Shown in pieces: positions 1 through 31,681 of a stretch of DNA of 64,000 nt (position 1 is its first letter; every line of letters begins with the position of its first letter). Under the pieces are notes generated by a model. The model worked only from the letters and a program-made list of their open reading frames with translations, did not search any database and had not been told where the DNA came from. Made by a program: the position numbers and the translations under genes. The stretch lies in assembly GCF_025996515.1 (NCBI RefSeq), contig NZ_BLRH01000009.1, forward strand, positions 930,001-994,000, given 5' to 3'. Source of the DNA: Rhizohabitans arisaemae. GTDB taxonomy: Bacteria > Actinomycetota > Actinomycetes > Streptosporangiales > Streptosporangiaceae.

Positions 1-1435
1 TGCCCACGGCCCGCACGGGGAGCACCTCGAACAGCGTCCGCCTGCCGCGGTCGCCGAGAGAAACCCGGGCCACGTCGGGATTCGAAGTGCACGAGGACCC
101 GCCCCACCATGTCACGGTCCGGCCGAGCGGATACCGCGCCTTCAGGTTCAGGCCCACCCCGCGCCACAGGGGCTCGGTCCGCGTCGGCAGGCGCGACACG
201 GCCGAGAAGAGGAGTCGTAGATAGGCGTAGTAGGCGACGACCTGCGTGCGGTCCGGGTTGCGCAGGGCCGCGTTGACCTGCCGGGAGAACGCCGGATCGC
301 AGGTGTAGAGGTGGAGTGCCGCGGCCTCGTCGGCGGACAGGCCGCCGACCGAGGTGTTCGCGTACTCCTTGCCGAACCGGTGCGACCGGTCCAGCCGCCG
401 GTCGAGACCCGGCACCAGCCTGGCCGCGGAGGTGAGGCCGTGGCGGAAGTCCATGAGGGGGGTGCGGAAGACCCCCCTGATCGGGGGGAGTTCCAGACCC
501 TCGTGCTTGACGCTCTCGAGACGTTCGAGATACAGCGGGTTCGGTTCCATGGTGGCGGTGCTGAACGCCCCGGTGCGGGCGGCTGCGTCCTCGTCCACCC
601 CACCGGTCCGCGGCCGGTTCCACCCCTTGCTCGGCAGCCAGTCGATCTCGTCTGCGCCCAGCGCGTCGAGCGCCATGTTCACCACGCCGAAGTGGTTCCC
701 GTCGCAGAAGACGCCGCGCTGCGCCGTCGGGTTGGGGTGGTCGATGTGCCAGACCTTCACCTCGGGATACTTCCTCTGGATACGCGGCACCGCGTCCTTC
801 AAGCCGGGGGCATGATCCCCCCACCACGCGAACACGACACCGCGGTCCTCCTCGCCGGCGCTTTGCTTGGCCTTGAGGATCTCCTCGACGACCTTCTCCA
901 CGACCGGTCGCCAGAACGCGGTGTGCCGGTCGGCGGCCATCGCGTCGCCACCGGCGGTGAGCGCCGCGTTGAGCAGCAGCACGCCCTGGGTGAGCATCGC
1001 CTGGAACCACTCCGGCGGCTGCACCGTGTCGTGCTCTTTCAGCAGTTTGCGGATGTCGGCGATCGGCGTCCTCTTGGGGATGCCGTGCTTCCACATCGCC
1101 GCCGCCTTCACGACGGAGCGGATGGAGACGACCCGGCCCAACCGGCTGTCGCCCCAGTCGTGGAAGGTGTTGTCGAACATGGCGATGCCGGTGGCGCTCC
1201 CAGCCGTGAGGTAGGGGTTCTGGCCGAAGACCACGACCTTCCACTTGTGCGGCGGATTGGGCTTGAGCGCCTGGAAGGTGAGTTCCCGGACGGGTACGAC
1301 CTGCGGGCTGCGGCCCGGGCCGATAAAGGTGGCCGCGTCCGGTTGTGCCTCGATGACCGGCTTCAGCAGCGGCAGCCACGGCTCGCCGCCGGTGAACAGT
1401 TCGGCGAGGGCCAGCGGGTCGCTGGTGTCGCTCAT
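1..1435 (-). CDS. Uracil-DNA-glycosylase-like / ADP-ribosyltransferase fusion protein (C-terminus cut by window edge)
   Basis: The open frame runs from an ATG at 1435 (GGGAG six bases upstream) off the left edge, giving 478 residues without a stop. Residues about 1-265 follow family 1 uracil-DNA glycosylase in order: motif A appears as GQNPYL (71-76) instead of GQDPYH; VSIRSVVKAA resembles the SLRNIFKEL region; GVLLLN ends at N156; VFAWWGDHA resembles the LLWGxxA strand; and HPNP (H233) replaces HPSP, followed by an RG...HF...IDW tail. Residues about 370-478 match the R-S-E class of arginine-type ADP-ribosyltransferases: a helical lead-in, LWRGV with R425, then VTWWG and SSCTS (447-451), then RTLFEV. 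The catalytic ExE would lie beyond the edge. The glycosylase Asp is Asn and the motif A His is Leu, so base-excision activity may be altered. Domain assignments come from motif reading; the fusion is direct observation, the function is not known. Confidence 0.85.
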   Translation of the reverse strand, partial: MSDTSDPLALAELFTGGEPWLPLLKPVIEAQPDAATFIGPGRSPQVVPVRELTFQALKPNPPHKWKVVVFGQNPYLTAGSATGIAMFDNTFHDWGDSRLGRVVSIRSVVKAAAMWKHGIPKRTPIADIRKLLKEHDTVQPPEWFQAMLTQGVLLLNAALTAGGDAMAADRHTAFWRPVVEKVVEEILKAKQSAGEEDRGVVFAWWGDHAPGLKDAVPRIQRKYPEVKVWHIDHPNPTAQRGVFCDGNHFGVVNMALDALGADEIDWLPSKGWNRPRTGGVDEDAAARTGAFSTATMEPNPLYLERLESVKHEGLELPPIRGVFRTPLMDFRHGLTSAARLVPGLDRRLDRSHRFGKEYANTSVGGLSADEAAALHLYTCDPAFSRQVNAALRNPDRTQVVAYYAYLRLLFSAVSRLPTRTEPLWRGVGLNLKARYPLGRTVTWWGGSSCTSNPDVARVSLGDRGRRTLFEVLPVRAVG

Positions 1436-1502
1436 CGCGGGCTCCCGAGTTTGCGAACCGTGCAGGTCGTGGCACGGACGATCGGATGGATCGGAGAACC
1501 GG

Positions 1503-1535
1503 AAAGCCCACCCGTCGGCGCGCGTGGGCGGGCTT
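1503..1535 (-). terminator. GC-rich hairpin downstream of the aminotransferase gene
   Basis: AAGCCC-A-CCC pairs with GGG-C-GGGCTT across a 13-base loop, with one internal mismatch. It lies between the end of the aminotransferase gene and the start of the fusion gene on the minus strand, so it could end the upstream transcript. There is no T-tract, which is usual in actinobacteria. Confidence 0.35.
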
Positions 1536-1593
1536 CCCGCAGACACCGGTTGGGTCGACGCCATGATCCGCGGAAGACCCACGGCAGGCTGGT

Positions 1594-1640
1594 CCCGGCC
1601 CGGCCCGGCTCGGCCCGGCTCGGCTCGGCTCGGCTCGGGG
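1594..1640. repeat. Short tandem repeat of the 5-mer CGGCT/CGGCC
   Basis: About nine consecutive 5-base units (CGGCC, then CGGCT) fill the gap right after the aminotransferase stop codon. A perfect 5-mer run of this kind is prone to slippage. It is outside both coding frames; no function is visible. Confidence 0.7.
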
Positions 1641-1643
1641 AGC

Positions 1644-20291: not shown

Positions 20292-20798
20292 CTATTGAAT
20301 AGGCCTTATTGTGCCAGAAATATGAATAGACCAAACATCGCCAGTATTATAGCTTGCACCCCCAATCATCATTGGGCAGCCAACCACGATGATCTCCACA
20401 CCTGATTGAACCACACAAAATTGAATGAACTCATCTCCATCCTGCCCAGACACCTCATCAAGCTCAAACCCAGCATCACTTATGACATCTTTCAGAGATG
20501 AAATTGTCAGACGATTTGCAAAATCCCCATACTTCACTATCAAAGCAGAAGGAACAGCGTCAGGGTCGGCCCATAATAGCCTATGGACTTGAATACCAAT
20601 AGCTCCACACTTCCAGTCAATATCCCGAAAGAATGAAAATTCCAACAGGCCGTAGTCCCGGCGCAGGACCCCTCGCCTCCGATCATCGATGAAGTCCGCA
20701 CCAAACCGATTCTGCACCTCCTCTGGCACTGATCCGAGGCTGACTCCCAGCACGACATTTGCCGTTGCCGCTTGTGCGTAGAAATCCAAATCACTCAT
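20292..20798 (-). CDS. Putative immunity protein for the RHS toxin
   Basis: A 168-residue acidic soluble protein starting with ATG 20798, which overlaps the stop of the giant RHS gene as ATGA. It lacks signal and membrane segments, as expected of a cytosolic inhibitor. A short LRRDYGLLEFSF segment followed by an IQVHRL segment resembles small proteins found behind other actinobacterial RHS genes (from memory, not searched). Both this gene and the end of the RHS gene are close to 50 percent GC, far below the window average, so they were probably acquired together as a toxin/immunity cassette. Function is inferred from position, not from a known family. Confidence 0.7.
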   Translation of the reverse strand: MSDLDFYAQAATANVVLGVSLGSVPEEVQNRFGADFIDDRRRGVLRRDYGLLEFSFFRDIDWKCGAIGIQVHRLLWADPDAVPSALIVKYGDFANRLTISSLKDVISDAGFELDEVSGQDGDEFIQFCVVQSGVEIIVVGCPMMIGGASYNTGDVWSIHISGTIRPIQ

Positions 20799-23700
20799 CC
20801 CATTTTCTCCAAAGCCTTAATCAAGAAATGCATTTCCGCTGCACGATTCCTCTTCATGCCCAGTTCGCCCCTGTTCATACGCGCCATCATGTCCTTCGCA
20901 TTCCGAATTAGACTCGCGCGCAACTGTGAGTCGAAAGCGATAGCGTCGGCGACCTGCTGGAGTTGCGCGCTGCTAGGCAGACCGTTTCGAAGTCGAATTC
21001 CCACAACCCCAACCCCCCCCTTGCCATCCGGGAAAATACGGGCTTCCTTGTTGCCTATGTATACATGAGCACCCTTAGTACCCCAGTCTCCGAATGAGAC
21101 GGAAACCTTAATGCACGGAGCTGCGTTATGGACAAGTACATCCGAATCTCCAACAGCAACATGATACGAATGCAGCTCGTCAACAGTGAGATTTCGAACT
21201 CTCGCGCCAAGCTGGCGATAATGCATCATCTCAGATACTTTGTGAGTGTCGCCTGTCGAACTGAGAAGACGCATGCCCACTACTAGCTGATCAGCATTCA
21301 GCCATCGGCTGTGGTCGTTGACCCAGAACGGATGTTCTGCGGTGGCGGTAACGACACCAGTTTGGTTACCCAAGTCTCCGTCAGTGTCCACCGTGATTTG
21401 GAAGAGCTCTTTGTCGCCTTCACCGCTGATCAGCACAATAACCGGTTTTCCGGCGGTCTTTCCTGTCTCAGGATCAGTAGCCAAGACCTTATCCCCGATC
21501 TTGACGTCCTCGATGTGCTTATAGGTCCCGTCTCCCATCAAAACCTCGGTGTCGGGAACGAAGCTACTGCAAGCCTTCGCGGCCGTCTTTAGCGCCGTAC
21601 CCAACTTTGAGAAGGATTTTCCTACCAGGCCGACTACTTTCTTGCCCGGTAGAGCATCGAGCGCCGCAGATACACACGCCATGTAGTTGCCCCCATGGCA
21701 AGCGATCCAGTCTCCGGCGAGGAAGTCCATCATTTGGGCAAGCTCGGTTTTCTTGAACGCCTCCTCGTTCATTGCAGTCCAGTCATCTTGCGACAACCCA
21801 AGCCAATTGGCCCTATCGACACAGTTATTGAATTGCTGCGGGGTATCAAACTTCAATACACAGCCATCAAGGAACTCGCGAGTCTTTTGGGCCAAAGCCG
21901 CCGCAATTCGCCATTGCTGACATTCCGACTTGCCGTACGTTTTCTCACAAGCAATCCTCGATCTCTCTTCCCGGCAGTGGCCTGCCTTCCCGCCTTTCTT
22001 GCAGTCGTCAGGATCTACCGCCAAACCGGTTGGGTCGGAGAGGCCGATGGGGTTGTCGCCGGCGTAGGAGTAGGGGTTTGACCATTGCGGGCGGCGTAGG
22101 TCGAGCAGCGGGTCTGGGGAGATGAACTTGCCGATGGCCGGGTCGTAATACCGGGCCGACAGATAGGTCAGTCCGGTCGCGGCGTCTTCGACTTTGCCCA
22201 GGAATCCGCGGTCGGTCTGGGGTAGGAAGTCTCCGCCGCGCTGTTCTCCGTATGGGAGGTAACGCTGCCGACTTACCTGGCCGGTGGTGTCGCCGATGGC
22301 GAGTTGCTCGCTGCCGTGCAGGCCTGAGAGCAGCCAGGTGAGGCCGCTGCCGCCGGTGCGGAGCGCCACCGTGGCGCCGTCGGGTGAGGTGTAGTACCGC
22401 TTGCAGGTGACCTGGCCGCCGGCGAGTTCCAGTTCCATCGAGCCGAGGTAGAGCACAGTCTTGCCCGCTTCGCGGCGGATCAGGCGCTCGCCGTCTGCGT
22501 CGTAGACCATCGAGGTGGTGGCGCCGTCCACGACTGCCTTGGCGAGTTGTCCGAGCTCGTTCCATTCGAAGCCTGCGGATTTGCCGTCCGCCACGCGGGT
22601 GAGCAACTGCCCCGCCGCGTCGTAGGCGTAGGTGTCGTCACCCGCTGTACCGCTGATTCTGGTCACCGCATTCGGGCGTACCGCGGTCGGTCCCGAGGCC
22701 GGATAGTGGTAGACCGATTCAGCCCCAGAGGAGTTCACCTTGGTGATATTGCCGACGGCATCGTAGGTGTAGCCCAGATTGTAGGGGGAGGTGCCCAGTC
22801 CGTCGGCGGAACCGCTCGCGCAGTTGCCAGCCGTTGTCGTCCAGGCCTGGCGCAGCCGCTCCAGGGCGTCGTAGGCGAAACACTCCGATTGGGATCCGGC
22901 CTTGTCCAGGATTCGGGTGATGTTTCCGCCGACGTCGTAGAAGAGCTGGTCGTCCTGCGCCGTGTTCACACTGGAGGTGCCAGACCTGGCGGTCGTCCTG
23001 ACATTGGTCAGGTATCCGGTCCCGTCGTCCCAGGTCATGCTCCGTCGGACCTGGCTGCTGGCTCCATACAGACGCTCAATCGGGAGCGCTGTCTTCGAGA
23101 AACGAGTCTCCTTGACGTAGGTGAATCCGCCCCCGAAATCGGAGGTGAGACCGTGTGCGAGGCCCTGGTCGCTGTAGGAGGAGGTGATCGTCTCGGCGGG
23201 AAGCCCACCGACAGCAGGCATACCGACGGATGCGATGCGTCCTGCGGTGTCATAGGAGGCGCTAAACGAGTAGTTGCCCGCGAGCAGCCCCTCGGACGCC
23301 GGAATCGACAATGTGGATCCGGTCGGCCGACCCATCACGTCGTAGCCGGTCACCGTATCGACGTAAGGCTGGCCCCCGGTCCAGCGTGTCGCCGAGGTCA
23401 GCTGCCCCTTGTGCAGGGTGTCGTACACCCATTCCGCGAGCCTCGTTCCGTTCCCAACCTCACCGGCCCACTGGGCGGTACGCCGGCCCATGTCGTCGTA
23501 GACGTAGGAGAGCTTCTGACCCTTGCCGTCGATACTTGAGATCATCCGGCCTGCGGCGTCATAAGTGCTTGTCGAAGATCCGGAATCGGGGTCGGTTCCC
23601 GCGATTCGACGACCCAGCAGGTCGTAGGTAAAGGTCCGTACGTTCCCCTTGGCGTCGATGATCTTCGTTGGCTTGCCCGCGTGGTCGTGCTCGTAGGTCG

Positions 23701-26700
23701 TGTCGTAGTGGGTTACGGCATCGATCCATTCCTCGACCTTGGTCACCTTGCCGCCGATGTCGACGTGGTGGACGGTCTTGTTGCCCTTGGGGTCGATCAA
23801 CTCTTCGCGGTCACCGAGGAACCGGGTGGTGGTGCGACGCAGTTCGGTGCTCAGGTTGTAGTCGATCTTGGCGACAGCGTTGTCTGTACCGTCGTAGACG
23901 GTTTCGCTCCAGGACGCCAGGTCCTTCATCGCGGGGTTCAGAAGTCCCGAGCCCGCAGCGTCCTCATTGTGGACGGGGCCCGAAGCCGCCCACTCCTGGC
24001 CACGGGAGTTGTGAGCCATCACGGAGACGATGCGTCCACCGGCAGGCGAAGCCGCCTGAATCTCCCGCTTACGCCCGAAGCCATCGATGTAGGTGTGCTT
24101 GGTCAGCCATTTCGCATTCGCGCCGGCCCCGGCGTGAAGCTGGCTCACTGAGGAGCTCACCGCCGCCGTGGGCTGCTCGATCGACCCGTCGTAGGGGATC
24201 GAGTAAGTGATCTTTCCGGCAGGGGTTCCTCCGCTCTTTGGCTGCAAAGGCGTCCAGAGCGTGGTGGTACGGGCCAGCGCGTCGTAGTCGATGTTGGTGT
24301 CCTGGAGGTTCGTCCCCCGGATGCCAACCGTGTTTCCGTGGTAGGGGGACGTCCACTTCGTTATCTGATGCCCCAGCGGATTGGTTGCCGTCACTCCGTT
24401 GGTTGGCCAGTTCACCGCGGGGTTGAAGACCGTCGTGGTGGTCTTCCCCAGCGCGTCCGTCATTGCGGTGGGGCGGCCGTAGTTGTCGTAGGTGGTTCTG
24501 ACCGTGGAGATGGCAGTCTCATTGATGGAGCTGCGCATCTCGGTGGGATTGCCATCCGACGGGGTGTTGGTCGCGGGGTCGGTACCGCCGTCGTACAGGG
24601 TGATCTTCTTCCCGAGCAGCCGCCCTGCACTGCATGAGTCCCCTTCGCGGGTTTCCTCAGCAGACGGCAAGCCCAGAATCCACGGGCTCGTGTTACCGAC
24701 GTAGGTCGTTCGGGTGCAGGTGTTGTCGGTGGGGACGGCCAGGTCGCCGTGGTTGTTGACCTGGGTGGGGTAGCCGTCGTTGTTGTAGGCGGTGAGGGAC
24801 TGGCCCCAACGGTAGCCGCCGTCGGCGAGGACGGTTCGGGTGCGTTCCTTGGACGGTTTGACGATGACGGGGTCGTAGATGCTTGGCTCGCCACCCGCCG
24901 CGTCGGTCCACATCCAGTATTCGTGCCGGGTCGACTGGATCTCTTCGTATTTGCCGGGGGCGGGGCCGGGGTCGACGGCGAGGCGGTCGTAGGTGAATGT
25001 CTGCCAGGGCGACCAAGCGGAGGTGTTGGTGCCGGCTACGGCACGGACACGCCAGCGGAGTTGCCACCCGGAGCTGAGGCTGGCGTTGACGGTGGCGGAG
25101 GCTCGGCCGCCGGTGACCACCAGGCTGGAGGCACCTCTCCAAAGGAGTGCTCCGCCGGGGGAGGTCTGGAGTTCGAACTCGGCGCGCAGGTTGGTGCCGC
25201 GTGCGCCGGCGATGTGTGCGGAGAGCGTTGGGGACGGGGTCGAGGTGACGCGCTGACCGGCGGTGACCCAGGACGGGGTCATCTCCAGGTCGCCTGCGGT
25301 CAGGGTGGCGGCGGGCTGCCCGGCGGTGAAGTGGCGCCAGGTGGACCAGGAGTAGGAGGCGACGCGGACGCGCCAGCGTACCTTCCAGCCTTCGGTGAGC
25401 AGCTGTGCCGGTACGGCTACCGCAGCCTGCCCCCCGGAGGGGACGTTCGCCGCCGAACCCGCCCAGATCAAGCCGCTGCCCTGGCTGGGAGGCGCGGACG
25501 GGGAGTGCTCAAGCTGGAACTCGACGGCACTGGCAGCACCGGACGACTCGGTAACCCGCGCGGACAGCTGTGGTGTGAGCGAGGTGCTGATCCGCTCTCC
25601 CCCGGTCACCCGGGACGGCGTAACACCGAACTGGTCGAGTACGGGGTCGGGGCGGTCGACTGTCAGGTTCGACCAGGACGACCAGGCGGATGTCGCCGAG
25701 GGGCTCGCAGCTCTGGCCCGCCAGCGCACCTGCCAGCCGTCGGACAGCGTGGCGGCCGGTACGGACACCGTCGCCTGCCCACCCGAGGCGACCCCCGGCA
25801 CCGAACCCGACCAGATCAAACCCGAACCCTGGCCCGCAGGCGCAGACGGAGCATGCTCCACCTCGAAATCGGTCCGCAGTGCGGCTCCGGCCGGATCGGT
25901 GACGGTGACGTGCAGGGAAGGCGTGAGGCTGGTGGTCACGATCGTGCCGTCGACGAGGTCGGACGGGGTGACCTGCGGATGTTCGACGAGCGGATCGGGG
26001 TAGTCGACGGCGAGTTCCTGCCAGGGCGACCACACGGACGCCGTACTCAGGACGGGGTTGAGTGCACGGACCCGCCAGCGGACCTGCCAGCCGTCGGACA
26101 ACGTCGCAGCCGGTACGGACACCGTCGCCTGCCCACCCGACACCACACTCGCCACCGAACCCGACCAAATCACACCACTCCCCTGGCCCGCAGGAGCCGA
26201 CGGAGCATGCTCCACCTCGAACTCCGCCCGTGAGGCAGCCCCAGTGGGTTCGGTCACGGTGGCGCGGAGTTCGGGAGTCAGGGAGGAGGTGGTGATCAGT
26301 CCGTTGACGCTCTGGGACGGGCTGACCTGCAGGTCGCCGACGACAGGTGGGGGTAGGTCGACCCGGAGTTCCTGCCAGGCGGACCAGACGGAGAACGCGT
26401 CCGCCTTGGTGGCGCGGGCCCGCCAGCGGACGATCCAGCCGTTGGCCAGCCGACCGGCGGCGACGGTCACCGAAGCCTGAGCGCCGGAAGCCACGCCAGC
26501 CACCGAACCCGACCAGATCGCACCACTGCCCTGACCGGCCGGAGCCGACGGAGCGTGCTCCAGCTGGAATTCGGCGCCGAGCGGTCCACCGGCGGGGTGG
26601 GAAACGGTCACGTGCAGCTGCGGAACGAGCGAGGAGGTGACGACCTGACCGCCGACCAGCTGTGCCGGCGTGACCTGGGGCTGATTCACAGAGAGCGCCG

Positions 26701-29700
26701 GATCCGGGTCAGGAAGATCGACCCGCAGGTCGGACCATGTGGTCCAGCTCGACGCCGAACCGGCCGCGGCGTTGACGGCGCGAACCCGCCAGCGGACCGC
26801 CCACCCGTCCGTCAGTTTCCCCTCGGGAACGGTCACCGAGGCCTGGCTACCCGAGGCGACCCCTGTCGCCGAACCCGACCAGATCGCGCCTGTGCCCTGA
26901 CCGGCCGGAGCCGAGGGAGCGTGTTCCAGTTCAAACTCGGCGGACAGTACGGCACCCTGCGGGTCGGTCACCCGGGCCAGCAAGGCAGGGGTCAGGCTGC
27001 CTGTCGCCGTCGTCCCGTTCACCTGTGCCGACGGAGTCACCTGAAGCTGATCGACGACCGGATCGGGCACATCCACCCGCAGCTCCGCCCAGGCGCTCCA
27101 GGCCGAGGACGAACCGGCGGTCACGGCTCGCGCCCGCCAGCGGACCAGCCACCCGTCGGACAGCTTCGCCGCGGGAACGGTCACCGAACCCTGGGCACCG
27201 GAAGCCACACCGGCCACCGAACCCGACCAGATCGCCCCCGCGCCCTGACCCGCCGGAGCCAAGGGAGCATGCTCCACCTCGAACTGGCCGGTCAGCGTCC
27301 CGTTCTCCGGATCGGTCAGTGTCGCCCGCAGGCTCGGCGTGACCGAAGAGGTGACCGTCTCGCCGTTGACCTGGGTGGACGGGGTCACCTGGAGTGCGCT
27401 GACCGTCGGATCCGGGGTGTCCACTGCCAACGCCTGCCAGGCCGACCAAGCGGACGCCATACCTCCGCTCACCGCGCGGACACGCCAACGGACCTGCCAG
27501 CGGTCGGCGAGCCTGCCTCCGGGGACGGTCGCTGAGGCTTGCGCACCGGAAGCCACGTTCACCACCGAACCCGACCAGATCGCGCCTGTGCCCTGACCCG
27601 CCGGAGCAGACGGAGCGTGCTCCACCTCGAACTCGGCTGTGGAGGAGGCGGCGGATGGATGGGTCACGGTCGTGTGCAGACTCGGTGTGTAGGAGGAGGT
27701 GACCGTCTGACCGTTCACCTGGGTGGACGGGGTGACCTGCAGCTGATCCACGGATGGCTTGGGCAGATCCACTTTGAGCGTCTGCCAGCCCGACCAGGCC
27801 GAGGCCGTACCCCGCCCGGCGTTGACCGCCCGAGCCCGCCAGCGGACCAGCCACCCGTCGGTCAGGGTGGCCGCCGGTAGCGTCACGGAGGCGGCGTTAC
27901 CCGGGGTGACCGCAGCGGAGGCGCCCGACCAGATGACCCCCGTACCCTGACCGGAGGGGGCAGTGGGGTCGTGCTCCACCTGGAATTCTCCGGTCAGCGA
28001 GCCGCCGGCGGGGTCGGAGACCAGGCCGGACAAAGCCGGGGTCAGCGTCGAGGTCACCGGTGTCCCGTTCACCACCTGGGAAGGTGTGACCGCGAGACCG
28101 CTGATTCCCGGGTCCGACAGGGTGTAGACGACCTTGAGGCGTGGGGTGTGACCGTTCGTACCGGTGTACTCGGAGGATCGGATGACGGAGTATCGGCTGT
28201 TGTGGCCGATGGCCTCGGTGACCGCCCGGACCTGCACGCCGTGGTTCGCCGTGCCGTCCGCCCACGCCTGGGCGATCGCCGTGATCGGCCAGGAGAGGGT
28301 CCCCGCGGGGCAGGTGGCCGGACGTGTGATCACCGCGGCGCCGTCCGCGGTCACCCCGGGCTGGGTGCTCCAGAACACGGTCGCCAGCCAGTTCTGCGTG
28401 ATCCGGGATACCCGCATGTCATTGTTCGTACCAAGGCATCCGTAGTCGTTGGCGTCCCACAGTTCCAGCGCCGCACTGGTCACGGTCTTCCCGACCAGGG
28501 ATGCGGTGTCGAACTTCATCAGGGCACGGCGGTGATACTCGAAATTGGAACCCACGTTGATGTACTGACTGTTCTCAGGCAGGCTGGAACTCGCAGCGCT
28601 GAAGACCTCAAGGTCCCGAACCAAGGGAAGCACGACCGAGAAGCCCAGCCCATCCGGATTGGCCATGGTTTCCGGTGCTCCGGGCGGGCCGGCCACCCGT
28701 GTCGGCTTGCCCGACGCCACCGCGATCAGCGATGCCGCGACATGAGCCGCCCCATCGGCTACCGGCGCTGAAGGCTTCGCCGACGGACCGGCTGTGGTTT
28801 TCGAGGCGATCTGCTGGGCACCGGCCCCGACCTGCTTCATCCGCCAGCTCTGCTCCTGCAGCACCTGCCCGGCCAGCCATCGGCGGTCGGGGTGGACGTT
28901 GCCTTCGAAGTCGGTGACCAAGGTGCCCTTGGGTATCCAGCCGTAGTACGAATCGTCGTACATGCCTCGGTAGAACGACTGGGAGGAGACGCTGTACTGC
29001 TCGGGATCGTCACCGGAGCCTTTGATCACGCGGACCGTCTGGTAGCCGCGGAACTCGCTCCAGGTGAGTTCCTGGTTGTCGGCCCCCCAGCCGCTCGATC
29101 GCGCCCACGCCGGCTTGCCGACGTACTCGTAGCGGGTCACCATATCCGGTGAGCCACCGACGAGGTCCTTCTCCACCACCTTGGCGACCAGGTACTTGTG
29201 GTACACCCCGTAGGAGCCGAAGCGGGGACCCCACCGGATGCACCGGTGCCGGTTGGGATCCGCCCACTCCACGCAGACGCCCTTGTTCCAGTACTCGAAC
29301 GGCTGGTAGCAGTCGAACTCCGCCCGATCCCAGCTCACGCTTTCCAGGGCGGTGCCGCTCGGACACAGGTTGGCCTGGCCGTAGTGGACCTCGATCCGGC
29401 CACCCAAGCCGTTGGCGATCGCCGCGACCCGCGGATACTGGGCTCTGGGGAAGGCGTCCGCCATCGGGCCCACCGGGAGCAGGGCCGCGTCGAACTCAAC
29501 CACGGGAAGCCTGATCTGGTTGGCGTCGTCACCGATCAAGCCGACCGGCCGGACGTAATCCAGCCACAGAGCCGGGGCCACCTTCTGACCTGGGATGACC
29601 TCCCATCCACCGATGTATTTCTGGCGGAGCTGAAGCTTGGTGACGTTGTCCCAGCCCGAGGTGGCCGGGTTCCGGCTCTCGGTGACGATCGAGTCCAGGC

Positions 29701-31681
29701 GGCGGGCCACGAAGAACCCCGGGGAACCGGCCAGACAGACGTCGTTCTGGTCGCAGTTGAGATCTTGCGGCAGGTCCCAGCTGCACTGGCTACCACCGAC
29801 CGGTCCACTGTTCGGGTCGGTCGGATCGGGCGGGATCTCCTGGCAGGAGTAGTTCGGCTGGCCCGGTGGGGGCGGCTCGAGGGTGTCGTCGTCGGCGACC
29901 GGGCAGGGATCTGTGGTGTAGGGGTTGGCAAGCGGGTCTTCGCGGACCATCCCGGCCCGGCATCGGTTGACCGAGTTGAAGACCACCCTGGCGACGTGCT
30001 GGCTCCCCGCGACCTGGGTGTTCGCCCCCCATTCCACCCTGCTGAGGTAACCGCCCCGGTCGTAGCCGATCGGCGTGTTGCACGGCACCGGGAAGGGGTC
30101 GTTCGGCCCGCCCTGACAGGTGCGGTGCCGCAGGACGTACTGGTTGGTCTCCTTGGTGTAGTGGTAATCCGTCACGTTCTCGTTGGGGTCGATGCTCTGA
30201 TCGATGTTCCACCGCCACACGCCTCGGCAGGACGGCTCCGGCGGGGTCGGTGGCCACTGCGGCGTCGATGTGCCGCCGGGGAAGGTCGGCCTGGGATACC
30301 GGCTCTGGCAGGGATCTCCCTGATCATCGCCGATGAACGGCATCCGCCAGCGTGAGGCGTCGCCGGTGCCGAACGTGTGTACGCCGCCGTCAGGTGTCCG
30401 CACCGTCCACGAGGAGTACTCGAACGAATCCGGCGGCTGGGGCACACCCTGGTTCGGCTCCCAGTGCGGGAAGCTGAAGCCGGAGAACTCGACCTTCCAC
30501 GTCGGTTGGTCGACACTCTGGAAACGGCCGTTCCGATAGACAATCTTGGACGATTTGCCGCCGAGGCTGACGACGTACTCCGGGTAGCCGCCGACCGCAT
30601 GCCAGCACATATGCCCGATGTCATCCTGATCCGGGTGCTTGGCAGCGGTGTCCCCCTCCGCCGCGGAGGTCCCGCAGGCGCGGTAACGCCGCTCGATGTA
30701 GCCGCCACCGGTCACCTCCCAGCCGAGACCCACCCAGCCGGAGAAGTTGTTCGACCCGGCCGTCATGCCGTCGATCCGGGACGCGTCGTAGGCGAGGGCC
30801 ATGCCGGGGCCCGAGCCCGCCACCGACGGCGGCTCGGCGATCGGATAGCTGTAGGAGAACGAACCGGATGAGAGACCCGTCGTCCAGGTACCGGTCGGCT
30901 TGAGATCCGTCGCCGCGAAATTTCCGCCTTCCCCCGAGGTCGAGGACGACATCATGAACACGGCGTCGGCGTCCTGTTCGGCTTGCGCGTCCTTGCCCGG
31001 CAGGAGCGGCGGAGACCCGTCACCCTGGATCGGTGCACGTTGAGCCGCGACGGGGAGATCCGCGATCAGCTGGTCCTTTGTGCCGTCACGGATGAGCTGA
31101 ACCGGCTCCGGCCGCAGTGAACAGCCCTCCCCCGCGCCACGCCGTACCGCACATCCCGGAAGACGCACCAGCTTGAGTCGCTCGCCGAATGAGCCGCCAT
31201 AAAGGTCACGGATCCCGCTGTAGTCGAACGCCAGGCGTGCGATTCCAGGGCGGTCACCACCGTCGGCTCGGGACACCCTGACCGCCAGGCCCACACCACC
31301 GAGTCGCTTGGCCACCTGCGGCCCAAGCGACTCAACTCGGACCTTGGTCACCGGGCTTGAATCCCTGGCGGGAACGTTCCTGACCGAGACCGGCAGATCC
31401 TGGGCTTTCTGGGGTTTGGCACCGGGCACAGGAACGTCCACCACGGCCGTACCGGCATTGGGCCAGGTGAGCTTGGCCGGTTTCGGCTCCAACTTGTCCT
31501 CAGGCCCGGAGTACTCTTTGGGCTTCGGCGGTGTACGGCCTTCGACGGAGCGTTCCTCAGTGCCGGGTGGCGGCGCGGTAGCGGCTTGGGCCAGATCCTC
31601 GGGGACACCGATACCTGCCACCAGAACCGCTCCAGCCGTCAAACCGGCAGCAAGCAGCACAAAAAGGCGACGTGACGACAC
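20795..31681 (-). CDS. Giant secreted RHS/YD-repeat polymorphic toxin with HINT domain
   Basis: A 3628-residue protein. Order: Sec signal peptide (1-33); SpvB-like N-terminal region (about 270-450, YSYPIAEPPSVAGSGPG); DNRLRE-like domain (about 1040-1190); nine Ig/fibronectin-like repeats of about 116 residues (about 1190-2237); RHS/YD repeats (about 2260-3150) that build the hollow shell; the RHS core end ISPDPLLD...NPYSYAGDNP...DPTGL (to about 3217); a HINT autoprocessing domain from C3371 to VHN at 3517-3519; and a 109-residue C-terminal tip (3520-3628) that I cannot assign to a toxin family. Expected role: contact-dependent antagonism, with the tip released from the shell. GC falls sharply after about 21990, which marks the exchangeable end. 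The immunity gene overlaps its stop. Confidence 0.92.
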   Translation of the reverse strand: MSSRRLFVLLAAGLTAGAVLVAGIGVPEDLAQAATAPPPGTEERSVEGRTPPKPKEYSGPEDKLEPKPAKLTWPNAGTAVVDVPVPGAKPQKAQDLPVSVRNVPARDSSPVTKVRVESLGPQVAKRLGGVGLAVRVSRADGGDRPGIARLAFDYSGIRDLYGGSFGERLKLVRLPGCAVRRGAGEGCSLRPEPVQLIRDGTKDQLIADLPVAAQRAPIQGDGSPPLLPGKDAQAEQDADAVFMMSSSTSGEGGNFAATDLKPTGTWTTGLSSGSFSYSYPIAEPPSVAGSGPGMALAYDASRIDGMTAGSNNFSGWVGLGWEVTGGGYIERRYRACGTSAAEGDTAAKHPDQDDIGHMCWHAVGGYPEYVVSLGGKSSKIVYRNGRFQSVDQPTWKVEFSGFSFPHWEPNQGVPQPPDSFEYSSWTVRTPDGGVHTFGTGDASRWRMPFIGDDQGDPCQSRYPRPTFPGGTSTPQWPPTPPEPSCRGVWRWNIDQSIDPNENVTDYHYTKETNQYVLRHRTCQGGPNDPFPVPCNTPIGYDRGGYLSRVEWGANTQVAGSQHVARVVFNSVNRCRAGMVREDPLANPYTTDPCPVADDDTLEPPPPGQPNYSCQEIPPDPTDPNSGPVGGSQCSWDLPQDLNCDQNDVCLAGSPGFFVARRLDSIVTESRNPATSGWDNVTKLQLRQKYIGGWEVIPGQKVAPALWLDYVRPVGLIGDDANQIRLPVVEFDAALLPVGPMADAFPRAQYPRVAAIANGLGGRIEVHYGQANLCPSGTALESVSWDRAEFDCYQPFEYWNKGVCVEWADPNRHRCIRWGPRFGSYGVYHKYLVAKVVEKDLVGGSPDMVTRYEYVGKPAWARSSGWGADNQELTWSEFRGYQTVRVIKGSGDDPEQYSVSSQSFYRGMYDDSYYGWIPKGTLVTDFEGNVHPDRRWLAGQVLQEQSWRMKQVGAGAQQIASKTTAGPSAKPSAPVADGAAHVAASLIAVASGKPTRVAGPPGAPETMANPDGLGFSVVLPLVRDLEVFSAASSSLPENSQYINVGSNFEYHRRALMKFDTASLVGKTVTSAALELWDANDYGCLGTNNDMRVSRITQNWLATVFWSTQPGVTADGAAVITRPATCPAGTLSWPITAIAQAWADGTANHGVQVRAVTEAIGHNSRYSVIRSSEYTGTNGHTPRLKVVYTLSDPGISGLAVTPSQVVNGTPVTSTLTPALSGLVSDPAGGSLTGEFQVEHDPTAPSGQGTGVIWSGASAAVTPGNAASVTLPAATLTDGWLVRWRARAVNAGRGTASAWSGWQTLKVDLPKPSVDQLQVTPSTQVNGQTVTSSYTPSLHTTVTHPSAASSTAEFEVEHAPSAPAGQGTGAIWSGSVVNVASGAQASATVPGGRLADRWQVRWRVRAVSGGMASAWSAWQALAVDTPDPTVSALQVTPSTQVNGETVTSSVTPSLRATLTDPENGTLTGQFEVEHAPLAPAGQGAGAIWSGSVAGVASGAQGSVTVPAAKLSDGWLVRWRARAVTAGSSSAWSAWAELRVDVPDPVVDQLQVTPSAQVNGTTATGSLTPALLARVTDPQGAVLSAEFELEHAPSAPAGQGTGAIWSGSATGVASGSQASVTVPEGKLTDGWAVRWRVRAVNAAAGSASSWTTWSDLRVDLPDPDPALSVNQPQVTPAQLVGGQVVTSSLVPQLHVTVSHPAGGPLGAEFQLEHAPSAPAGQGSGAIWSGSVAGVASGAQASVTVAAGRLANGWIVRWRARATKADAFSVWSAWQELRVDLPPPVVGDLQVSPSQSVNGLITTSSLTPELRATVTEPTGAASRAEFEVEHAPSAPAGQGSGVIWSGSVASVVSGGQATVSVPAATLSDGWQVRWRVRALNPVLSTASVWSPWQELAVDYPDPLVEHPQVTPSDLVDGTIVTTSLTPSLHVTVTDPAGAALRTDFEVEHAPSAPAGQGSGLIWSGSVPGVASGGQATVSVPAATLSDGWQVRWRARAASPSATSAWSSWSNLTVDRPDPVLDQFGVTPSRVTGGERISTSLTPQLSARVTESSGAASAVEFQLEHSPSAPPSQGSGLIWAGSAANVPSGGQAAVAVPAQLLTEGWKVRWRVRVASYSWSTWRHFTAGQPAATLTAGDLEMTPSWVTAGQRVTSTPSPTLSAHIAGARGTNLRAEFELQTSPGGALLWRGASSLVVTGGRASATVNASLSSGWQLRWRVRAVAGTNTSAWSPWQTFTYDRLAVDPGPAPGKYEEIQSTRHEYWMWTDAAGGEPSIYDPVIVKPSKERTRTVLADGGYRWGQSLTAYNNDGYPTQVNNHGDLAVPTDNTCTRTTYVGNTSPWILGLPSAEETREGDSCSAGRLLGKKITLYDGGTDPATNTPSDGNPTEMRSSINETAISTVRTTYDNYGRPTAMTDALGKTTTTVFNPAVNWPTNGVTATNPLGHQITKWTSPYHGNTVGIRGTNLQDTNIDYDALARTTTLWTPLQPKSGGTPAGKITYSIPYDGSIEQPTAAVSSSVSQLHAGAGANAKWLTKHTYIDGFGRKREIQAASPAGGRIVSVMAHNSRGQEWAASGPVHNEDAAGSGLLNPAMKDLASWSETVYDGTDNAVAKIDYNLSTELRRTTTRFLGDREELIDPKGNKTVHHVDIGGKVTKVEEWIDAVTHYDTTYEHDHAGKPTKIIDAKGNVRTFTYDLLGRRIAGTDPDSGSSTSTYDAAGRMISSIDGKGQKLSYVYDDMGRRTAQWAGEVGNGTRLAEWVYDTLHKGQLTSATRWTGGQPYVDTVTGYDVMGRPTGSTLSIPASEGLLAGNYSFSASYDTAGRIASVGMPAVGGLPAETITSSYSDQGLAHGLTSDFGGGFTYVKETRFSKTALPIERLYGASSQVRRSMTWDDGTGYLTNVRTTARSGTSSVNTAQDDQLFYDVGGNITRILDKAGSQSECFAYDALERLRQAWTTTAGNCASGSADGLGTSPYNLGYTYDAVGNITKVNSSGAESVYHYPASGPTAVRPNAVTRISGTAGDDTYAYDAAGQLLTRVADGKSAGFEWNELGQLAKAVVDGATTSMVYDADGERLIRREAGKTVLYLGSMELELAGGQVTCKRYYTSPDGATVALRTGGSGLTWLLSGLHGSEQLAIGDTTGQVSRQRYLPYGEQRGGDFLPQTDRGFLGKVEDAATGLTYLSARYYDPAIGKFISPDPLLDLRRPQWSNPYSYAGDNPIGLSDPTGLAVDPDDCKKGGKAGHCREERSRIACEKTYGKSECQQWRIAAALAQKTREFLDGCVLKFDTPQQFNNCVDRANWLGLSQDDWTAMNEEAFKKTELAQMMDFLAGDWIACHGGNYMACVSAALDALPGKKVVGLVGKSFSKLGTALKTAAKACSSFVPDTEVLMGDGTYKHIEDVKIGDKVLATDPETGKTAGKPVIVLISGEGDKELFQITVDTDGDLGNQTGVVTATAEHPFWVNDHSRWLNADQLVVGMRLLSSTGDTHKVSEMMHYRQLGARVRNLTVDELHSYHVAVGDSDVLVHNAAPCIKVSVSFGDWGTKGAHVYIGNKEARIFPDGKGGVGVVGIRLRNGLPSSAQLQQVADAIAFDSQLRASLIRNAKDMMARMNRGELGMKRNRAAEMHFLIKALEKMG
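24975..28110 (-). repeat. Nine tandem Ig-like repeats within the RHS protein gene
   Basis: Nine successive units of about 348 bases encode domains that each run from a VTPS-type start, through EFEVEHAPSAPAGQG and IWSGS, to DGWxVRWRxRA and SxWxxW. Units 2-7 are the most alike; units 1, 8 and 9 are more diverged. They should form a long extended stalk between the N-terminal domains and the RHS shell. The DNA similarity of the inner units makes copy-number change by recombination likely. Confidence 0.85.

Follow-up and report, generated by a model that had tools for sequence, protein, structure and literature searches.

A uracil-DNA-glycosylase-like domain joined to an ADP-ribosyltransferase in Rhizohabitans arisaemae and its relatives: a candidate DNA-damage-linked module with a macro-domain partner

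The DNA analysed here (the window) is a stretch of 64,000 nucleotides from Rhizohabitans arisaemae, contig NZ_BLRH01000009.1. The left edge of this stretch cuts through a gene on the minus strand. From position 1435 to position 1 the gene runs as a single open frame of 478 amino acids. Past the left edge, on the same contig (C8), the frame reaches 526 amino acids and a stop at 929855, so that 48 codons and the stop codon fall outside the window on its left side. The protein combines a uracil-DNA-glycosylase-like domain (the UDG half) with an ADP-ribosyltransferase (the ART half), and is called UDG-ART below. The features of the locus are as follows.

1..1435, minus strand: UDG-ART gene, residues 1-478 of 526, supported by homologues; the frame ends at G000:C8:929855
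620..1414, minus strand: uracil-DNA-glycosylase-like domain, residues ~8-272, from NCBIfam, PHROG, PDB profile and fold comparison
1208..1225, minus strand: motif A, GQNPYL, with Asn in place of the catalytic Asp, from residue comparison over 90 loci
968..985, minus strand: GVLLLN, with the uracil-contacting Asn kept (90/90), from residue comparison
728..739, minus strand: HPNP, with the motif B His kept (90/90), from residue comparison
2..499, minus strand: ADP-ribosyltransferase domain, from residue ~313, truncated where the window ends, from Pfam and fold comparison
155..169, minus strand: LWRGV, with the catalytic Arg425 (R in 90/90), from residue comparison
83..97, minus strand: SSCTS, STS-type motif, from residue comparison; the ExE residues E488/E490 lie outside the window
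1436..1643, no strand: upstream region of the UDG-ART gene, with no macro gene and no RecA-NDp motif, unlike that of the paralogue on contig C59

The original prediction had read this frame as a join of a UDG-like domain and an ADP-ribosyltransferase, and the join is real, as seen in the complete 526-residue frame and in its conserved relatives. All of the motifs it had named were found as described (GQNPYL at residues 71-76, GVLLLN at 151-156, HPNP at 233-236, LWRGV with R425, SSCTS at 447-451, and RTLFEV), and extension to the left in search of an ExE motif after residue 478 uncovered E488-E489-E490 in SAFAGEEEF. A frameshift or misassembly at residues 270-370, which had been named as a possible source of error, was ruled out, because the C59 paralogue, 76% identical and alignable over residues 3-522, and the homologues align through this part. 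The window protein was aligned to 70 further sequences, with an identity of 69-75%. Residues ~283-370 form the least conserved part, with a mean pairwise identity of 0.72 compared to 0.84 for the UDG half and 0.83 for the ART half. Homologues with the halves always in separate genes had been named as a further objection; both halves stand in one frame at 90 of the 90 loci compared, which were found as near-full-length matches.

The set of 90 loci consists of the window copy (L005), the C59 copy (L006), L009-L012 from plasmid records, 80 genome-contig loci (L013-L092), and L100, L101, L103 and L104. Pieces of the genome under study (L001-L004, L007-L008), duplicates of included genes as judged by frame length and score (L093-L099, L102), and later finds (L123-L125) stand outside this set. 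Profile and fold alignments were made from part-sets chosen for spread, with 6 (A1), 77 (A2) and 71 (A4) rows for UDG-ART and 38 (A3) and 48 (A5) rows for the macro domain. Since these sequences are relatives of one another, with 69-75% identity to the window protein, the residue and motif counts given below are not independent.

NCBIfam uracil-DNA glycosylase models matched the window part of the protein with a best value of 3.8e-20 and 72.7 bits, against a cut-off of 162. PHROG 12143 matched the UDG half at 1.3e-16, and a search of PDB with profile A2 found the Ung chains 8ail (1.2e-14) and 5x3g (3.4e-14) for the first half. Additionally, the modelled first half resembles Ung 4wpl (Z 11.8, 200 aligned residues, rmsd 4.2), in a model of low confidence at residues 73-104. 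The structure model of UDG-ART is modest (pLDDT 70.4, pTM 0.50, motif A region below 50); therefore, no active-site geometry is claimed.

In E. coli Ung, motif A carries the catalytic Asp, and a Phe stacks on the uracil. UDG-ART differs from family 1 Ung at both positions. GQNPY was found in 90 of 90 UDG-ART loci versus GQDPY, the family 1 form with the catalytic Asp, in 46 of the 46 stand-alone Ung loci examined, a control set obtained from the family, phylum and G501 genome searches. Because all 46 of these stand-alone Ungs carry Asp, the Asn can be regarded as a mark of the fused family. The whole motif is GQNPYP in the other 89 of the 90 loci and GQNPYL in the window copy. Met occupies the position of the stacking Phe in 90/90 loci, motif B reads H-x-N-P and not HPSP, and the fusion to an ART is a further difference. 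On the other hand, UDG-ART is like the family 1 Ung/BdiUng class in its predicted fold and in the pocket Asn, Tyr and motif B His, all of which are kept in the UDG half as judged from the alignment. The stretch GQxPYPRxESAxG is also common to UDG-ART and PDB 5x3g, which we take to be BdiUng.

The change from Asp to Asn, together with Met for the stacking Phe, suggests that catalysis was lost or changed in the UDG half, and the earlier description of a base-removing enzyme is doubtful with this Asn present at all 90 loci. Asn acts as the catalytic, water-activating residue in other members of the UDG superfamily, and the UDG half could therefore be active. An excerpt of PMC7505663 describes a catalytically inactive UNG that serves as a uracil-DNA-binding probe or sensor, and for this reason the role of a reader is preferred here. 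The chances that the UDG domain is a reader are about evenly balanced.

For the ART half, Pfam PF01129 matched the whole 526-residue protein at 3.3e-9 (36.8 bits, cut-off 22.3). PF01129 and PF03496 were the only Pfam matches at E values up to 1, and no match to the DarT model was found in UDG-ART in this range. The PDB search with profile A2 found the arginine transferase Vis for the second half (2.7e-5). The modelled second half resembles ART2.2 (1og4, Z 16.8, 202 aligned residues, rmsd 2.9), tied with the toxin/immunity ART 6drh (Z 16.5). The Arg, the S-S-C-T and both Glu of the ExE were present in 90 of 90 loci, which places the enzyme in the R-S-E class; the H-Y-E triad of PARP was not found. 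UDG-ART shares the R, S-S-C-T, ExE, ARTT loop and predicted fold with R-S-E arginine ARTs (ART2.2, the 6drh toxin and Vis), and is unlike them in having an N-terminal UDG domain and a pairing with a macro gene. The ARTT loop, SAFTGEEE, fits the pattern X-X-phi-X-X-E/Q-X-E in its Glu form. According to the portion of PMC7827354 available, Glu at the sixth ARTT position contacts arginine, and the guanine-modifying ScARP has Gln there. Judged from the ARTT loop only, Arg is a likely acceptor of ADP-ribose.

In a scan of one genome for each of 84,980 species, 199 UDG-ART relatives were counted, with search patterns taken from the UDG half, which UDG-less or strongly diverged relatives would escape. 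Every match among the best 80 of these 199 spans nearly the whole protein. The genera among the best 80 include Nonomuraea, Streptosporangium, Microtetraspora, Micromonospora, Catellatospora and Dactylosporangium, and also Streptomyces, Kitasatospora, Nocardia and Actinoplanes; as only the best 80 of the 199 were kept, homologues beyond Actinomycetota are possible. With 199 relatives counted, the join appears to be conserved more than chance would produce. Full-length UDG-ART was found in 12 of 150 genomes of the family and 3 of 396 genomes of the phylum, with the genome under study included in both counts. The remaining matches in these 150 and 396 genomes are all weak and confined to the UDG part; none extends past query residue 369, and some of them run through stop codons. 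No separate ART half was found in the 150 family and 396 phylum genomes. In the open-access literature, no description of the UDG-ART architecture or of a pair of UDG-ART and macro gene was found among the matches listed, and the fusion is apparently actinobacterial and undescribed.

The original prediction had also suggested anti-phage defence or antagonism, which finds little support. More specifically, the target could be phage DNA that contains uracil or is deaminated, for which the kept pocket could be of use, and an excerpt of PMC9503650 reports that ADP-ribosyltransferases take part in phage-host conflicts. Against this, a PADLOC search with the window part of UDG-ART found nothing, no relative was confirmed in viral contigs in two scans, and the 14 matching phage records match the UDG half only. 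Also, the promoter type described below is common to repair genes and places the module with recA, uvrC, polA and ung. Defence against such phage DNA is thus considered very improbable. The related candidate of a phage polyvalent or defence protein was likewise not favoured, based on PADLOC (window part of the protein), the viral contigs and the phage records.

Most UDG-ART genes have a constant neighbour. A macro-domain gene adjoins UDG-ART in 88 of the 90 loci: 71 have it head-to-head (69 divergent and 2, L083 and L103, with overlapping match ends), 10 have it on the same strand just upstream, and 7 have a fused macro-UDG-ART. The macro gene is absent at only two loci, L055, where the contig begins, and the window copy. 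At the C59 copy, the head-to-head macro gene P0004 matches PF01661 at 9.4e-9 (35.7 bits, cut-off 22). Of the 150 family genomes, the 12 with full-length UDG-ART are also those with a close macro gene (above 300 bits), which is present in 0 of the other 138. The fused frames contain 0 stops and have Pro/Ala/Thr-rich linkers, and a fused form is annotated as a single protein, WP_251091506.1. No widely shared third partner gene was found among neighbour clusters (frames of at least 70 amino acids within 9 kb, 35% identity, 60% coverage, L055 left out), in which several loci have short flanks and weaker neighbour links may escape; the largest cluster is an SDR-like family that covers 11 of 89 loci, with no constant side or strand. 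In the tree, rooted by midpoint only and with L103 left out, all 7 fused and 9 of the 10 same-strand forms fall in one Streptomyces clade with an SH-aLRT of 93, below the mark of 95, and the fused label needs 2 changes. Because fused and same-strand forms share this clade, an order from head-to-head through same strand to fused is suggested. The anatomy of the UDG-ART and macro module is, as judged from these comparisons, as good as certain.

Pairing of an ART gene with a macro gene is also the arrangement of DarTG, and a toxin-antitoxin or suicide module of this type should be considered, in which UDG-ART would be a toxin guided to DNA by the UDG fold, the macro protein its antitoxin, and DNA damage or infection the event that tips the balance. 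The strict pairing in the same 12 of 150 genomes, the patchy spread with no widely shared neighbours, and the presence of some modules in plasmid-labelled records (16 plasmid records match, four with a full-length homologue) are all consistent with such a system, and the text available from PMC9503650 predicts a toxin-antitoxin role for a sirtuin-macro pair found in actinobacterial phages. However, in 7 of 90 loci the macro domain and the ART form one fused protein, which speaks against a removable, labile antitoxin; the damage-type promoter is most evident ahead of the macro gene; and the window copy without a macro gene is tolerated, though the C59 macro protein could act in trans. UDG-ART is also unlike DarT in having a PF01129 R-S-E type ART, PF01129 and PF03496 being matched and not DarT, and in its additional UDG domain; the module differs further in being mostly head-to-head, sometimes fused, and accompanied by a RecA-NDp motif. 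A toxin-antitoxin function is therefore rated unlikely.

The published RecA-NDp/PafBC consensus, as given in an extract of PMC5656591, is tTGTCRgtg-8 nt-TannnT, and this was the pattern scored, with the mismatch of the one-mismatch form allowed in the -35 part. An earlier scan of 69 intergenic regions with damage-response motifs had found the RecA-NDp core, with up to 2 mismatches, in 36 of 69. For the LexA SOS box, the uncontrolled counts between the genes were 4/69 (full box, up to 3 mismatches) and 5/69 (core, 1 mismatch). Upstream of the macro start, the published pattern was found strictly in 44 of 88 loci and with one mismatch in 72 of 88, compared to 0 in 20 first-order Markov resamplings; with two mismatches and the final T dropped, it was found in 80 of 88 regions versus a resampled mean of 0.9. 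As the intergenic regions share descent, these counts are inflated. The one-mismatch motif is present in 7/7 fused, 10/10 same-strand, 55/69 divergent and 0/2 overlapping loci, and in the 72 positive regions it starts 62-101 nt ahead of the first modelled macro codon. It is missing from 16 of the 88 macro upstream regions, and the two-mismatch form from 8 of the 88. The intact pair on C59 has a one-mismatch site only. Over the 90 loci, which amount to 1.75 Mb or, with both strands counted, 3.49 Mb of strand, there are 46 strict matches, and all of them are accounted for by 44 macro-side and 2 UDG-ART-side loci.

On the UDG-ART side, in loci without a same-strand macro gene, the motif was found strictly in 2/73, with one mismatch in 10/73 and with two mismatches in 27/73, versus resampled means of 0, 0 and 0.7. 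Because the motif is weaker on this side, the writer itself may not be damage-induced in head-to-head loci; in fused and same-strand loci the motif stands ahead of the whole module. The pattern was also checked on whole genomes. The genome under study has 6 strict sites and G501, a genome with a fused-type module, has 17, while the reversed pattern gave 0 and 0. From the 23 frames downstream of these sites, 10 picked as repair-like or module frames were scanned with Pfam. Among those picked in G501 are RecA, UvrC, DNA polymerase I, UDG, a RadA-like ATPase, a WGR protein and the module macro; among those picked in the genome under study are SbcD, an exonuclease with GIY-YIG, and a SWIM zinc-finger protein. 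From these motif matches, the macro-led forms probably belong to the PafBC/RecA-NDp damage regulon. Of the role first proposed for the protein, the tie to DNA damage is supported by this promoter; base removal is doubtful, and phage antagonism has little in its favour.

The partner is a macro-domain protein by both profile (PF01661) and predicted fold (1njr). N55 and D65 are kept in 88 of 88 macro proteins. The macro model has a pLDDT of 82.2, and its best fold match, over model residues 9-213, is yeast YMX7/YMR087W (1njr, Z 17.1, 184 aligned residues, rmsd 3.2), followed by a match with Z 15.4 and 142 aligned residues; in the sequence profile search, 1njr reached only E 0.025, behind six other macro chains. 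The DarG macrodomains 5m31 and 5m3i are in the fold list, lower than 1njr. We know of no macro domain that cleaves ADP-ribose from arginine. YMR087W is described, in the part of PMC6397177 at hand, as a Macro-2-type enzyme that processes ADP-ribose-1''-phosphate and lacks de-mono-ADP-ribosylating activity. For these two reasons, the macro domain as an eraser of the ART mark may be wrong, and the probability of an eraser is put at about even. The fold likeness to YMR087W is the point at which the writer-eraser reading is weakest, and it is also the best reason to consider a product in which ADP-ribose is linked to phosphate.

Such a product is part of another explanation, in which an active, altered glycosylase would remove an unusual base, the ART would cap DNA or phosphate, and the Macro-2-like macro domain would resolve linkages of the ADP-ribose-1''-phosphate type. 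Besides the model nearest to the ADP-ribose-1''-monophosphatase 1njr, the water-activating Asn of other UDG-superfamily members, the pocket residues kept in 90/90 loci, and the DNA-damage promoter motif would all fit. However, with Glu at its sixth position the ARTT loop has the form that goes with arginine, not the Gln of ScARP in the PMC7827354 excerpt, and the Asn and Met in 90/90 loci suggest lost or changed catalysis. DNA-end modification of this kind is regarded as quite improbable.

The best explanation is that the UDG-ART family is the writer of an actinobacterial, DNA-damage-linked ADP-ribosylation module in which the UDG fold would read the lesion, and on the comparisons made here we give it an even chance. 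DNA damage would turn the module on through PafBC. The UDG domain would then flip and hold deaminated bases or abasic sites, with excision absent or slow, and the ART would ADP-ribosylate itself or proteins at the lesion, Arg being the likely acceptor. Finally, the macro domain would remove or process the ADP-ribose, and the signal would end. Overall, this would be the logic of PARP1/PARG built from unrelated parts. The broader claim of an independent, PARP1/PARG-like damage signalling of actinobacteria, with a silenced glycosylase as reader, an R-S-E ART, a macro eraser and a PafBC switch, is tentative and stands somewhat below even.

An excerpt of PMC4245714 presents PARP1/PARG damage ADP-ribosylation as eukaryotic and WGR-PARPs as sporadic in bacteria. 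Like PARP1/PARG, the module has a putative DNA-reading domain fused to an NAD-using ART, a macro-fold partner and a tie to the damage response. Unlike PARP, UDG-ART is of the R-S-E and not the H-Y-E class, no WGR domain was found in it, its presumed reader is a UDG fold, and mono- rather than poly-ADP-ribosylation is expected; it is not a member of that family. Another relevant comparison is SCO6735, a macrodomain protein of S. coelicolor with a RecA-NDp promoter and five-fold UV induction, whose deletion mutant shows no significant damage sensitivity in the text available from PMC5087735. The section available from PMC9411070 places SCO6735 in the ALC1/TARG1 branch and gives its endogenous transferase as not known; this one macrodomain is what has connected ADP-ribosylation with the DNA damage response of Streptomyces. 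The module macro is like SCO6735, for which UV-inducibility has been shown, in lying behind a RecA-NDp promoter, and is unlike it in being nearest to YMR087W in predicted fold and in having a dedicated putative writer. The module would add a putative writer together with its macro partner, under a damage promoter of the type that precedes SCO6735. If the broader claim of PARP1/PARG-like signalling is true, the module would amount to a first set of writer, reader and eraser dedicated to endogenous ADP-ribosylation in the bacterial DNA damage response. It would also be one of the few cases in which a repair glycosylase has become a sensor. Because the module occurs in tractable Streptomyces, the role of endogenous ADP-ribosylation in bacterial repair is testable.

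The macro-domain partner lies on another contig and is hence invisible from the window alone, as is the duplicate status of the window copy. The window copy is sister to the C59 copy with a support of 88 and has a branch of 0.61 versus 0.11. The dN/dS between the two copies is 0.52, compared to 0.25-0.30 between the C59 copy and three orthologues. Among the 90, the window copy alone has altered these motif A positions (P76L, R77T, E79G). There is no macro gene in the surrounding 20 kb and no RecA-NDp motif in the 600 bases upstream. From these data, the window gene is a fast-evolving, diverged duplicate, and the intact pair is on C59. With its long branch, its dN/dS, and the absence of macro gene and motif, the window therefore shows a derived duplicate, and the system itself is found at C59. 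Decay of the window copy into a gene that no longer works would agree with the branch length, the dN/dS, the three changes at positions invariant in the other 89, and the absence of partner and promoter motif; it is nevertheless held to be somewhat unlikely, as the window copy has a full-length open frame, retains all catalytic residues and shows a dN/dS below 1.

As seen in the stand-alone uracil-DNA glycosylases (Ungs), 22 of 46 carry GQDPYP instead of GQDPYH as motif A, L106, L108 and L109 being among them. Therefore, the Pro in motif A of the fused glycosylase-ADP-ribosyltransferase family is nothing out of the ordinary, and the Asn alone is unusual.

Downstream of the intact copy of the fused gene on contig C59 of the same genome, and separated from it by one small frame, lies a gene with two Pfam domains:
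L006:4113-6599 (C59), minus strand, DUF4132 + DUF7737 gene.
Conservation of this gene beside the module (the fused gene with its macro-domain partner) was not seen in neighbour clustering.

Modules were also found in plasmid-labelled records of Embleya and Streptomyces (L010, L011, and L012), a setting that may bear on their patchy spread. At 334 kb, the linear plasmid L011 is the smallest of these records; it carries an IS200/IS605 transposase within a few kb of the module.

Other genes lie behind RecA-NDp sites, the PafBC-type DNA-damage promoters. The strict site at G501:C12:164883 (L164), in a genome with a fused-type module, precedes a gene for a protein with WGR, a domain accompanying PARPs. 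The site at G000:C8:1089233 (L154), in the Rhizohabitans genome outside the window, precedes a gene whose product combines an exonuclease domain with a GIY-YIG nuclease domain.

Within the window, one open frame probably encodes a giant multidomain protein:
window 20795-31681, minus strand, open frame of 3628 residues.
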